Made by a program: the position numbers and the translations under genes. Of a stretch of DNA of 42,537 nt, positions 9,595-41,557 are shown one piece after another. The stretch is from a virus. The DNA lies in the IMG/VR virus record IMGVR_UViG_3300046519_000442, positions 1 through 42,537 of that record; one strand, given 5' to 3'. Numbering within the stretch: position 1 is the stretch's first letter; each line of letters begins with the position of its first letter. A model generated the notes under the pieces. It was not told the DNA's origin. It ran no database searches and saw only the letters and a list, made by a program, of their open reading frames with translations.

Positions 9595-10332
9595 TTACAG
9601 AAGGACTGAGTACCAGAACACTTTGCCGATCACCATGATGTCTTTCTGAAGCATCTCGTCGGCGCTGTATTCTTCGTCTGGATGTTCATGTTGATTGTAA
9701 CTTCGCATTCTGATGCCGCCGCCGGGCACCCGATAGAGCGTTTTCACCCTGAGTTGCCCTCCGTGATTCACGGCATACATCTTTCCGTCGGTAATGGATG
9801 TGCTGCCCTGATCAACTCCGACAGTGCTGCCGTGAGGTAACACTGGTTCCATGCTGTTTCCGCTCACGGTTACGCATACAGCCTCGCTCGGCTGAACGTT
9901 CTGACGCCTAAGTGTTTGCTTGCCAAATCGCAATTTTTGATGGTGCGACGGCTCTACTACTGTCTTTCCGCTCCCGGCTGACAGTTCTACTTCCTTGAGG
10001 AACGGCACATACACCTCGTCATCATCCAGCGGCGTGTCATCGTCCCAAACCGAAAACTGGCCCAGGTACTGAGCATTGCTATCCACTTGTTTAATCGGCT
10101 GCATTCCCGGCCGGTCTAGTGAGTAGCGATCAAGGCCGAGCTTTGTCTCAATGTCCCGAGCGAAGTCTTCCCCGATGTTTTTACTACCAGCAGATGACGG
10201 TGCTGTCGATAGGCAGCGCGATATGTAGTTGGCGCTCTTGCCCAAAGCATCGGCGATTCTCGCCTGCTTTCCATCGAAGCGCTGCTTCATGAGTGACCGC
10301 AAATTTTCGCGGCGAATGTCTGAAATATCCAT
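9595..10332 (-). CDS. cI: CI-type phage repressor, S24/LexA-like self-cleaving
   Basis: The 245-residue protein maintains lysogeny by binding the flanking operators. An N-terminal HTH covers about 1-70 (RRENLRSLMKQRFDGKQARIADALGKSANYISRCL). A linker leads to the S24 peptidase domain: a cleavable A119-G120 pair (ELSAGSGK), nucleophile S160 (SGNSMEPVLPHG) and general base K197 (QLRVKTLYR). RecA-stimulated self-cleavage, hence SOS induction, is expected. The start at 10332 matches a family-like N-terminus with AAGGA upstream; an in-frame upstream extension to 10437 would run through the operators and is rejected. Confidence 0.93.
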   Translation of the reverse strand: MDISDIRRENLRSLMKQRFDGKQARIADALGKSANYISRCLSTAPSSAGSKNIGEDFARDIETKLGLDRYSLDRPGMQPIKQVDSNAQYLGQFSVWDDDTPLDDDEVYVPFLKEVELSAGSGKTVVEPSHHQKLRFGKQTLRRQNVQPSEAVCVTVSGNSMEPVLPHGSTVGVDQGSTSITDGKMYAVNHGGQLRVKTLYRVPGGGIRMRSYNQHEHPDEEYSADEMLQKDIMVIGKVFWYSVLL

Positions 10333-10352
10333 CCGCAAATCATCCTTCACTG

Positions 10353-10405
10353 TTACCAGTAGGTAAATTCCCTGAGGGTATTGCTTTGAGATTACCTGCG
10401 GGTAA
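10353..10405. promoter_or_regulatory. oR: three repressor operators between cI and cro
   Basis: Perfect TTACC-N4-GGTAA palindromes lie at 10353-10366 and 10392-10405. A weaker copy (TTCCC-TGAG-GGTAT) sits at 10368-10381 between them. Centres are 15 and 24 bp apart. The outer site overlaps the candidate rightward -10. Together with oL this gives two-plus-three sites, similar to the tripartite lambda oR. Confidence 0.8.
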
Positions 10406-10408
10406 TAA
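10381..10408 (+). promoter_or_regulatory. Candidate pR promoter
   Basis: TTGCTT (10381-10386) and TAATAA (10403-10408) with a 16-bp spacer point to the cro-like gene 28 bp downstream. The operator at 10392-10405 covers the spacer and part of the -10, explaining repression in the lysogen. The -35 is only moderate. Confidence 0.5.
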
Positions 10409-10435
10409 TCCGAGGCATCTAAAGGGAGGCCCGCC

Positions 10436-10666
10436 ATGCGGACAAAAAATCCTCAACTTCTTGAGTGGTTGAAAACGGCTACTGACGGCTCTGTCGAGAA
10501 GACGGGCACCAGTCGTGCGTACCTGAGACTCATAGCTTATGGGCACAAGACCGCTTCTGCCGAAATCGCTGCCCGAACCGAATCTGCGACCGAAGGGAAA
10601 GTTACTCGCAAAGCTCTCCGCCCGGATGACTGGGAACAAATCTGGCCGGAGTTGTCGGTCGCCTGA
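10436..10666 (+). CDS. cro: Cro-like repressor of the YdaS type
   Basis: The 76-residue protein has an HTH (SVEKTGTSRAYLRLIAYGHKTASAEIAARTESATEG) and the C-terminal signature VTRKALRPDDWEQIWPEL found in YdaS/Cro-like phage regulators. As the first rightward gene divergent from the S24 repressor it should act as Cro, shutting down repressor synthesis in lytic growth. GGGAGG lies seven bases before the ATG. Confidence 0.85.
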   Translation: MRTKNPQLLEWLKTATDGSVEKTGTSRAYLRLIAYGHKTASAEIAARTESATEGKVTRKALRPDDWEQIWPELSVA

Positions 10667-10768
10667 TTTTGGATCAGTTCGTTGAGCCAATTATCCAGAG
10701 TCGGCGTCGACAGAGGTAGTGATTCAGATTGGCTGTGAATCCATACAGTAAAAAACTTCAGACGAAAA

Positions 10769-10824: not shown

Positions 10825-11565
10825 ATGAACATGAACACCACCCCCGGCAATACCTCGAACATTCCGACACGTTTTGCGATTAATCAAAACGTGTCGCGAC
10901 ACATGTCATCTCGCGAGATCGCTGATCTCACTGGCAGTACGCACGACAACGTTCTGAAAACCATTCGTGGCTACGTCGCAAAGGGTGTCGTTTCTTCAAA
11001 CGACACCCCCTATGTCCACCCGCAGAACGGTCAGGTCTATCGAGAGTTCCTGCTTTCACAGCGAGACACTCTGGTCGTTGTGTCCGGCTACAGCGTCGAG
11101 CTGCGCGCCCGCATCATTGATCGCTGGCAGGAACTGGAAGACCAAGCGGGTCAGTTCCAGATCCCGACCACCTACGCCGAGGCGCTACAGGCTGCTGCTG
11201 ATCAGGCGAAGGACAACCAAACCCTGCGCCTGGTCATTCTCGATCAGGCGCCGAAGGTTGCGGCCATCAAACGGCTTGCGGCTGCGGAAGGTGCGATCTG
11301 CATTACCGACGCCGCGAAGCATCTGCAGCTGAAGCCTTCGAAGCTTTTCGCCTGGATGCAGCAGAACCGGTGGATCTTCCGCCGCCAAGGCTCCGGGCGC
11401 TGGACAGCTTACCAGCCACGAATCACCTCCGGATTCATGGTCCACAAAGTCACTGCTCTCAAGCCTGACTCAGAAACCGGTGCTGACCGTGCCGCTTTCG
11501 ATCCTCTCGTTACCCCAAAGGGCCTTGCCCGTTTGGCCGAATTGAATATCGGAGCCTCGCTGTGA
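10825..11565 (+). CDS. Phage antirepressor: Rha-like N-terminus, KilAC/ANT C-terminus
   Basis: The 246-residue protein joins two common phage modules. A Rha/pRha-type domain covers about 20-108 (MSSREIADLTGSTHDNVLKTIR, FLLSQRDTLVVVSGYSVELRARIIDRWQELE). An ANT/KilAC DNA-binding domain covers about 125-235 (EGAICITDAAKHLQLKPSKLFAWMQQNRWIFRRQGSGRWTAYQ). Such proteins interfere with repressors or modulate early transcription. Its stop overlaps the next gene's GTG as GTGA. It starts the replication segment of the rightward operon. Confidence 0.88.
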   Translation: MNMNTTPGNTSNIPTRFAINQNVSRHMSSREIADLTGSTHDNVLKTIRGYVAKGVVSSNDTPYVHPQNGQVYREFLLSQRDTLVVVSGYSVELRARIIDRWQELEDQAGQFQIPTTYAEALQAAADQAKDNQTLRLVILDQAPKVAAIKRLAAAEGAICITDAAKHLQLKPSKLFAWMQQNRWIFRRQGSGRWTAYQPRITSGFMVHKVTALKPDSETGADRAAFDPLVTPKGLARLAELNIGASL

Positions 11566-38963: not shown

Positions 38964-39386
38964 ATGACTGCAACTGATAAAGATCGGGACGTGCTTGCCC
39001 GTACGCTTTGGGGCGAAGCTCGCGGCGAAGGCGCGGCCGGCCAGATCGCCGTGGCCTGGGCGATCCGCAACCGGGTGTTTGATGGGAAAACCAATTCGTG
39101 GTGGGGTGAGGGCTACGCCGGCGTTTGCCAGAAGGCGTGGCAGTTCAGCTGCTGGAACAAGACCGACCCGAACTATCAGTTTCTGATCGACGTGAAGAAG
39201 ATCCCGTTCCGAGAGCTGGCGCAATGCCGAATCGCGGCTGACAAGGTTATCGACAACGCGGTGCCCGATCCCACTGGCGGCGCCACGCACTACTACGCGA
39301 CCAGTATCAAGGCACCGGCTTGGTCGGCGAAGGCGAAGCAGACCCTCAAGCTGGGCGGGCATGTGTTCTTCCGGGATGTGCCGTGA
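38964..39386 (+). CDS. Endolysin, SleB/cell-wall hydrolase family
   Basis: The 140-residue protein matches the Hydrolase_2 (SleB-like) family: DVLARTLWGEARGEGAAGQIAVAWAIRNRV with the catalytic Glu in WGEARGE, then GVCQKAWQFSCWN and a C-terminal DPTGGATHYYATSIKAPAWS. It should cut peptidoglycan glycan strands during lysis. There is no signal peptide, so it relies on the holin encoded 22 kb upstream. ATG at 38964 follows GGAGA; GTG one codon earlier is possible. Confidence 0.93.
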   Translation: MTATDKDRDVLARTLWGEARGEGAAGQIAVAWAIRNRVFDGKTNSWWGEGYAGVCQKAWQFSCWNKTDPNYQFLIDVKKIPFRELAQCRIAADKVIDNAVPDPTGGATHYYATSIKAPAWSAKAKQTLKLGGHVFFRDVP

Positions 39387-39892
39387 TGGTCGTGCCGTGG
39401 AAAGCAGTTGGGTTGCTGGCGCTGGTCCTCGCCGGCTTCGGGAGCGCCTGGCAGTTTCAGGATTGGCGCTACGGAAACCATTTGGCCCAGCAGGCCCAGC
39501 AGCACACCGAAACCCTCAATCAACTGACCCAAGCCGCTGCCACCGCCCAGCAGGCCGAGCAGGACAAGCGACTGGCGCTCGCGCAGCGGCTGTCAGTCAG
39601 CGAGCAATCCCACTATAAGGAACTGAGCGATGCTCAAAAGAACCAAGATCGCCTGCGCGATCGCCTTGCCACTTCTGATTTGCGGCTGTCAGTCCTCATC
39701 GAAGCAACCGACGCTGCCAAAGGCTGCGGGGTGCCATCCACCTCCTGCGCCGGCGGCGTGGATCATGCAGCCGTACGCGCCCGACTTGACCCAGCGCATG
39801 CTCAACGAATTGTCGCCATCACCGACACCGGCGACCGGGGATTGATTGCGTTGCAGGCGTGCCAGGCTTATGTCAGGGAGTTATCACGCTGA
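39386..39892 (+). CDS. Rz: Rz inner-membrane spanin
   Basis: The 168-residue protein has one N-terminal transmembrane helix (about 5-24), then a long periplasmic coiled-coil rich in Q, A and E. The C-terminal half carries KNQDRLRDRLATSDLRLSVLIEA and the DAAKGCGVP...AVRARLDPAHAQRIVAITDTGDRGLIALQACQAYV pattern of Rz proteins. It joins inner and outer membranes at lysis together with the nested Rz1. It overlaps the lysin stop as TGATG. Confidence 0.92.
   Translation: MVVPWKAVGLLALVLAGFGSAWQFQDWRYGNHLAQQAQQHTETLNQLTQAAATAQQAEQDKRLALAQRLSVSEQSHYKELSDAQKNQDRLRDRLATSDLRLSVLIEATDAAKGCGVPSTSCAGGVDHAAVRARLDPAHAQRIVAITDTGDRGLIALQACQAYVRELSR
39630..39845 (+). CDS. Rz1: Rz1 outer-membrane spanin lipoprotein, nested in Rz
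   Basis: The 71-residue frame lies entirely inside Rz, shifted by one base. It encodes a lipoprotein signal (KRTKIACAIALPLLICGC, lipidated C20) and a proline-rich mature part (CHPPPAPAAW), the hallmarks of Rz1. AAGGAACTGAGCG lies before its ATG. Fully embedded Rz1 is the lambda arrangement. Confidence 0.92.
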   Translation: MLKRTKIACAIALPLLICGCQSSSKQPTLPKAAGCHPPPAPAAWIMQPYAPDLTQRMLNELSPSPTPATGD

Positions 39893-40260
39893 GGAGGCGA
39901 CGGTAGGTTGCCGAATGGGCTTTCGCCCTTGAGAACTTTGAGTCGAGTGTCGAGCTCGGATATATGCTTGTCCTTTGCCATCAAGGTCCAATTGCTGCGA
40001 ATCTCTATTTCACTTGCGCGTCGGCTGGCGTCAGACGCCTCCGCTTTGGCGACGGTCAGTTGCGAGCGCAGAGAATCAAGCTCCCGCGTGATCGCATCAT
40101 TGACTTGAACAAGCCCCTGAACGTTTTCCAGAGCTCGCGCCAGATGAAGCGTAAGCGCTTCGAACTCGTTCTCGTACATTCGGAGCTGGTGACGACAGGT
40201 TTCGATTGGCTCGGGGTTGCCGAGCCAATCGTCGGTGTCTTCTATATAGAGGGGTTCCAC
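39868..40260 (-). CDS. Coiled-coil protein under a LexA box
   Basis: The 130-residue acidic protein is predicted to be mostly coiled-coil (about 22-110: heptads such as ENEFEALTLHLARALENVQGLVQVNDAITRELDSLRSQL). The start is GTG at 40260 with AGGT about ten bases upstream. The gene converges on Rz with a 25-bp tail overlap. A near-perfect LexA operator lies 15 bp upstream of the start and overlaps the probable promoter, so it should be induced by DNA damage, when the prophage is also induced. Function unknown. Confidence 0.7.
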   Translation of the reverse strand: MEPLYIEDTDDWLGNPEPIETCRHQLRMYENEFEALTLHLARALENVQGLVQVNDAITRELDSLRSQLTVAKAEASDASRRASEIEIRSNWTLMAKDKHISELDTRLKVLKGESPFGNLPSPPQRDNSLT

Positions 40261-40275
40261 TTCTGCGATTACCTA

Positions 40276-40295
40276 TACTGTTTGGATATACAGTA
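40276..40295. promoter_or_regulatory. LexA (SOS) box
   Basis: TACTG-N10-CAGTA with core CTGTTTGGATATACAG (40278-40293) fits the LexA consensus CTGT-N8-ACAG with perfect half-sites. A TATAGG hexamer, a possible -10 for the minus-strand gene, lies at 40271-40276 directly beside it. Its position between promoter and GTG makes repression likely. Confidence 0.82.
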
Positions 40296-40413
40296 ATCGA
40301 GGCGAGACAGGTGGGCGAGGGTGAGGCGACGAGCTGTAGGATTTTGGATTGGTGTTCGGTCGGCAGGACGCCGGGGAATGGGCTACCACTGTAGGAATAT
40401 ACAACGCTAAGTT

Positions 40414-40550: not shown

Positions 40551-40736
40551 CTAGTGAACCAATCGCTCGAATTCAACCTGGGCAGCGTAGAACTCATCTC
40601 GAACAGAAAGCCACGCGGCTAAGTCTTGCTCAGTTTGCGCGGGATTTGATTCAAGCAACTCCCATTGGGAGCAATGCCGATCGAAGGCCGCATTCGCCTT
40701 TTCCTGCGCTTCAAGATAAACAGAATTTGTGTTCAT
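40551..40736 (-). CDS. 61-residue acidic helical protein, unknown
   Basis: The product (MNTNSVYLEAQEKANAAFDRHCSQ...) is short, helical and acidic, with no membrane segment. AAGGA lies nine bases before the ATG. It belongs to the minus-strand accessory group at the prophage right end and may be expressed in the lysogen. I do not recognise the family. The 155-bp gap upstream (40737-40891) is AT-rich and holds no gene I can support. Confidence 0.6.
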   Translation of the reverse strand: MNTNSVYLEAQEKANAAFDRHCSQWELLESNPAQTEQDLAAWLSVRDEFYAAQVEFERLVH

Positions 40737-40891: not shown

Positions 40892-41293
40892 CTATCTAGT
40901 TGGAGGGTAAATCGCAGATGCACATAGCTGATTAATCACTGCGCCGGTTGGAGAATTACCCATGATGACTGAATTGCCGCCTGCCGGGAGGAGAGCCCAA
41001 GTGTATCCAACATAGGCGCCATAGCTATTTTTCCCGTTTATCTCGATACACCAGGAGTCTTTCGATTTGTCTCGTGATTCTCCTCTATTGTCTGAGGTTA
41101 CGAAAAAAGCATCACGAAATTTTGCGCTATCAGGATCCTTTAGGTCGTGACTCGCCATCGTATGGGCAAGCAAAACTGCATTTTCACCCATCGGATATCT
41201 ATAAAGTATCAAAGGTTTCTGAGCGGCTGGTTTTGGAGGAGTGGAGCATCCGGCGAGAGAGAAAAGAACCAGACTTAGGGCGAGCTTGTTCAT
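40892..41293 (-). CDS. Lipoprotein at the prophage right end, probable lysogenic-conversion gene
   Basis: The 133-residue protein has a clear lipoprotein signal (KLALSLVLFSLAGC, lipobox LAGC, C16). Its soluble domain has DLKDPDSAKFRDAFF...WCIEINGKNSYGAYVGYTWALL, a pattern shared by small secreted proteins of unknown function in many Proteobacteria. It is AT-richer than the structural genes and lies next to attR, where phage cargo genes collect. GGAAT precedes the ATG. An envelope role such as exclusion is plausible but unproved. Confidence 0.75.
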   Translation of the reverse strand: MNKLALSLVLFSLAGCSTPPKPAAQKPLILYRYPMGENAVLLAHTMASHDLKDPDSAKFRDAFFVTSDNRGESRDKSKDSWCIEINGKNSYGAYVGYTWALLPAGGNSVIMGNSPTGAVINQLCASAIYPPTR

Positions 41294-41507: not shown

Positions 41508-41557
41508 AGCATGGGGTGCTAGGGGTCGAGTGTTCGAATCACTCCGTCCCGACCATA
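41508..41557. repeat. attR core (50-bp direct repeat with attL)
   Basis: This is an exact copy of 365-414. It holds only the 3' half of tRNA-Pro, preceded by unrelated phage sequence that cannot complete the 5' half, so it is the inactive host-derived remnant left by integration. Confidence 0.95.

Follow-up and report, generated by a model that had tools for sequence, protein, structure and literature searches.

A coiled-coil gene opposite the lysis genes of a prophage, very likely under LexA control and possibly part of an accessory unit for DNA-damage tolerance

The window analysed here is the 42,537-nt IMG/VR virus record IMGVR_UViG_3300046519_000442, which, as read from its sequence, carries a complete prophage of ~41 kb integrated in tRNA-Pro. 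The left attachment site, attL (365-414), lies within the tRNA-Pro gene (336-412), and attR (41508-41557, plus strand), a 50-bp exact repeat of attL, marks the right prophage end. Towards this end the plus strand carries, in order, the endolysin (cell wall hydrolase) gene (38964-39386; Pfam PF07486), the gene for the i-spanin Rz (39386-39892; Pfam PF03245 Phage_lysis, 3.7e-9; PHROG 2466 Rz-like spanin, 1.2e-54) and, nested in Rz, the gene for the o-spanin lipoprotein Rz1 (39630-39845; PHROG 3198, 9e-13; Pfam Rz1 just under the cut-off). Opposing them on the minus strand is a gene of 130 codons with a GTG start codon at 40258-40260 (39868-40260; placed by the open reading frame call and by family relatives), referred to below as the coiled-coil gene. 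It stands tail to tail with Rz, and the coordinates confirm the 25-bp overlap (39868-39892) by which the preliminary description had it converging on Rz/Rz1.

A 20-bp LexA-type (SOS) box, TACTGTATATCCAAACAGTA on the strand of the gene, occupies 40276-40295 (minus strand) and leaves a gap of 15 nt to the GTG, so that the near-consensus box claimed at this distance is indeed present. It has three mismatches to TACTGTATATATATACAGTA, and no site this good was found in dinucleotide-preserving shuffles of the window. Upstream of the box, comparison of upstream sequences by eye revealed a non-coding block (40320-40376, minus strand; CCCCGGCGTCCTGCCGACCGAACACCA...CTACAGCTCGTCGCCTCACC) that is wholly or partly common to many otherwise different prophages and may be a promoter, a terminator or related to recombination. 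The coiled-coil gene lies outside the immunity region, where the gene for a CI-type repressor (9595-10437, minus strand) encodes an S24 peptidase domain (Pfam PF00717, 1e-24), a domain also present in the repressor of 37 of 43 related prophages. The operator-like repeats near cI/cro read TTACC/GGTAA and are unlike the SOS box. The gene in the cro position (10436-10666) has a Pfam YdaS_toxin match of 2e-7, barely above the cut-off, and a CTGT-N8-ACAG core, of which about one is expected by chance in the window, lies at 10731-10750, ~75 nt before an antirepressor gene with Rha/KilAC domains (10825-11565).

The name coiled-coil, given earlier to the gene on its sequence, is supported by an AlphaFold2 model (45 sequences, mean pLDDT 87, pTM 0.49) in which codons 18-110 (39931-40209, minus strand) are predicted to form a single continuous alpha helix, with blocks of pLDDT 97-99 in residues 31-100; the protein is probably a dimer. 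Two family alignments delimit a conserved N-terminal block at codons 7-51 (40108-40242, minus strand) with the motif E-x-T-xx-WLG-x-P-x-P-[LI]-E ... E-x-E ... L ... LV, of which WLGxPTPLE, the conserved N-terminal motif, precedes the long predicted helix. Sequence search found at least 376 relatives of the protein in viral contigs, and among 955 pairs of relatives at 75-95% identity, none of which includes the window gene itself, the median dN/dS was 0.15 and all values were below 0.5. Because of this ratio and these relatives, the open reading frame is, by comparison, called a real gene under purifying selection. The N-terminus changes about one third as fast as the rest, with a dN of 0.047 for residues 1-55 against 0.162 for the remainder. 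Pfam and PHROGs gave only sub-threshold coiled-coil matches and no family for the window protein, NCBIfam gave no family and no usable match, PADLOC gave no usable match and nothing beyond weak coiled-coil matches to defence proteins, a structure search of viral models gave no match, and a sequence search of the PDB returned only generic coiled coils, all with E of 0.005 or worse. No description of the family was found in a literature search, most subscription journals being outside its reach. Neither the single-helix model nor the absence of a named family points directly to a function. One relative, in P. fluorescens HKI0770 (L150:6001-6759), extends in frame to a total of 252 aa, the longer C-terminal part having no Pfam match.

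A profile search, with the weakest matches counted, found the family in the genomes of 96 of 299 Pseudomonas species, and the 76 relatives returned when each species was searched through a single genome were all from entries titled Pseudomonas. Under a strict rule (CTGT-N8-[AC]CAG no more than 60 nt before the start), 183 of 190 family loci carry the box, spaced 15-21 nt from the start; the 190 loci are mutually related, and 66 distinct sequences occur among the 183 boxes. The same rule was satisfied by 0.16% of 33,371 control windows from those loci. With one mismatch allowed, a CTGT-N8-ACAG-type core lies within 150 nt of the start in every one of the 116 viral-contig and phage loci that extend 100 nt or more upstream, and within 80 nt in 74 of the 76 genome loci. 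Divergent relatives occur elsewhere in Pseudomonas genomes, the weakest few of them possibly chance coiled-coil matches, and over a 135-nt stretch their box is perfect in 33 of 53 and has a single mismatch in 11; for many of these divergent relatives, no lysis, integrase or SRAP genes were found within the 6 kb examined. On three Pseudomonas chromosomes (L233, L251 and L253) the relatives are divergent (PFPSPLELLEHQC...), carry a CTGTTGATYCATMCAG-type box and perhaps represent a chromosomal branch of the family; the one in L233 sits between transporter genes and not in a prophage.

The full palindrome TACTGT-N8-ACAGTA is found at only 2-3 places per 6-7 Mb genome in three Pseudomonas genomes. 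Its eight places comprise four before members of the coiled-coil family, one before a UmuD-like gene, two before radical-SAM genes and one other; the two radical-SAM genes we take, on inspection by eye (for one of them without a family search), to resemble known SOS members. The lexA genes of these genomes carry CTGTATAAAAAGACAG. A box of this type, TACTGTCTATGCATACAGTA, also lies 20 nt before the GTG start of PP3901, located by its published primers, a P. putida prophage gene reported to be controlled by LexA1/LexA2 and induced by DNA damage (PMC4595014). The box before the coiled-coil gene, like that of an SOS gene, overlaps or adjoins the promoter, is conserved in relatives and recurs at established SOS genes of the host genus. 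LexA binding is so far a prediction, which leaves some room for the palindrome to have arisen by chance or to be the operator for a repressor encoded by the phage itself, but this is extremely unlikely, the cI/cro repeats having another sequence and the motif being constant over unrelated prophages and preceding host SOS genes; the phage's own repressor was accordingly rejected as the binder. LexA control of the coiled-coil gene is considered very likely because the box is kept across the family at a near-fixed distance, the same motif stands at host SOS genes and at PP3901, and the phage operators differ. The direct LexA control proposed in the preliminary description thus has strong comparative support.

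PP3901 (Abella et al. 2007, as cited in PMC4595014) resembles the coiled-coil gene in being a small Pseudomonas prophage gene with the same type of box, whereas its protein is unrelated and belongs to DUF1654 (PF07867). A search of the PP3901 stretch for the coiled-coil family gave no match, the window protein has no PF07867 match and a PP3901 query had no match in the window; homology of the two was rejected. The phage VW-6S has TGCTGTATATCCATACAGCT (L005:183-202) ~20 nt before gene VW6S_20, the start of which resembles DUF1654 by eye, and VW-6S would then have two boxed genes.

In P. putida, PP3901 is reported to be needed for the induction of other prophages (PMC4595014), and the coiled-coil gene could similarly be an antirepressor or induction helper that disables the repressor of its own or a co-resident prophage after LexA cleavage, in the manner of 186 Tum, N15 AntC and Gifsy GfoA/GftA. 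These LexA-controlled antirepressors act on repressors, those of Gifsy being non-cleavable (PMC3121763), and their regulatory logic is the one proposed for the coiled-coil gene, in that a small prophage gene set apart from the immunity region answers directly to LexA (PMC3121763). The repressor in the window differs in having an S24 domain; it is of the cleavable type, as are those of the 37 of 43 related prophages, and ordinary cleavage can therefore induce without an antirepressor. No sequence relation of the coiled-coil protein to GfoA/GftA, Tum or AntC was found in searches made without direct alignment. Against an antirepressor also stand the difference between its family and that of PP3901, the boxed divergent relatives at sites where no prophage marker was found, and what appears to be one protein family spread over many unrelated prophages and unmatched to a single repressor type. 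An antirepressor is on balance rather unlikely. The earlier suggestion that the gene aids induction survives as something that it may do; that it should be necessary for induction is contradicted by the cleavable-type repressor.

The surroundings of Rz were compared in its 80 closest relatives, a sample which speaks for this prophage group and not for all prophages. Seven of these loci end within 500 nt of Rz, and of the 73 informative loci that remain, 39 have the coiled-coil gene in the convergent position, 31 have an unrelated gene of 241 aa and three have neither. Such a unit, always convergent, is thus carried by 70 of 73 loci, and the lead gene has an SOS-type box before it in nearly all Rz-centred loci where the sequence reaches far enough. 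For Pseudomonas prophages, these counts refute the statement that a LexA-regulated gene is out of the ordinary at this place on the map. Directly downstream of the coiled-coil gene, on the same strand, an SRAP gene is found in 45 of 126 coiled-coil loci (~36%); no SRAP gene has this place in the window, where Rz follows instead.

This arrangement bears on the proposal that the RNA running from the coiled-coil gene into Rz/Rz1, and not the protein, is what matters, so that antisense transcription would hold lysis back until the SOS response subsides or late transcription prevails. The 25-bp tail-to-tail overlap in the window is matched by similar overlaps in many relatives, and the overlap contains no terminator-like site, the nearest on that strand being inside Rz at 39662-39623; such sites are near chance level. 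Antisense action is nevertheless disfavoured, and judged very unlikely, because the gene and Rz are often apart: in many relatives they have the SRAP gene, the 241-aa gene or 0.2-1.3 kb of some other sequence between them. Moreover, purifying selection clearly acts on the protein, and the divergent relatives retain the box at sites that have no lysis genes around them. The roles in antisense control of Rz or in lysis timing that had been put forward for the gene are, on the same grounds, unsupported.

SRAP proteins (YedK/HMCES-type) cap abasic sites. The SRAP gene was examined in its own sample of 80 closest relatives, and neither these loci nor those of the Rz sample are independent draws. 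The coiled-coil gene stands upstream in 33 of 72 SRAP loci by an automatic count, which missed a few because the open frame began early, and four more were seen beside SRAP on inspection. SRAP loci lacking the coiled-coil gene are led instead by the 241-aa gene with a C-terminal CxxC pair, and 26 of the 31 Rz loci that have the 241-aa gene also have SRAP. A perfect or CCAG-type box, ~790 nt before SRAP, precedes the 241-aa gene in 31 of the 32 SRAP loci with enough upstream sequence. A reading of the SRAP-only loci as boxless, suggested by a count of 0 of 34 within 250 nt, was rejected, as the box lies ~790 nt upstream, before the 241-aa gene. The 241-aa gene (for example L297:2162-2887, and loci L290-L360 generally) belongs to PHROG 19595, has no Pfam match and ends in CxxC...CxxC; with a LexA-type box before it and SRAP after it, it stands in for the coiled-coil gene in many prophages. 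By comparison of these loci, the pattern is one of LexA-led units, modular operons with exchangeable lead genes and an optional SRAP gene. SRAP proteins (DUF159/YedK/HMCES), those of prophages included, have been tied to the SOS response (Aravind 2013, PMC3765255). SRAP is often the second gene of a unit led by the coiled-coil gene; the unit in the window differs in having no SRAP, and in having as lead gene a coiled-coil protein not found described in the literature searched.

The coiled-coil gene would, according to this comparison, be part of a LexA-controlled accessory unit for DNA-damage tolerance, a proposal to which we give about an even chance. Such a unit would lie between the lysis genes and the attachment site, directed against the late operon, with the coiled-coil gene leading and, in the window, being its sole gene. 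In the lysogen, host LexA (of the LexA1 type) bound to the box would keep the promoter shut; upon DNA damage, RecA would trigger self-cleavage of LexA and the unit would be switched on at once, regardless of cleavage of the phage repressor CI. We infer LexA binding, induction and dimer formation, and the WLGxPTPLE motif at the N-terminus would probably dock on a partner. Since SRAP is the next gene in ~36% of relatives, and since lead genes headed by a LexA box are repeatedly coupled to SRAP, the likeliest role would be to support DNA-damage tolerance, from which both the lysogen and the phage genome would gain. This role is drawn from the gene neighbourhood, and the SRAP link is not obligate, many family members, including that of the window, having no adjacent SRAP.

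The same neighbourhood would also suit an effector made at the time of SOS that acts on the host or on competing phages, by holding back cell division, damping SOS or excluding a superinfecting phage. The unit has the typical marks of accessory ('moron') genes, with a site between lysis genes and attachment site, a promoter of its own, the opposite strand and a lead gene that varies, and the family is without known relatives. The protein, however, resembles no known inhibitor or defence protein apart from the weak coiled-coil matches, and the recurrent linkage to SRAP points to DNA and not to division or exclusion, which leaves such an effector unlikely.

The damage-tolerance role can be extended, with rather low probability, to a dedicated SOS slot of modular build that faces the lysis operon; there, lead proteins of unrelated families (the coiled-coil protein or the 241-aa protein with its CxxC pair) would be exchanged and would serve as adaptors for SRAP-type shielding of abasic sites, the prophage guarding its own DNA and that of the host during damage and before the lysis decision. 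Prophages of a few model phages are known to have accessory genes under LexA control. The family described here is found in about one third of the sampled Pseudomonas species, with a near-invariable LexA-type box and repeated pairing with SRAP, and if the proposal is true, prophage genes would routinely take part in the response of Pseudomonas to DNA damage.

Two further minus-strand features lie between the coiled-coil gene and attR in the window, a 61-aa open reading frame (40551-40736) and a small lipoprotein-like gene (40892-41293; PHROG 2320), and both recur beside the coiled-coil gene in three other loci (L007, L008 and L129).
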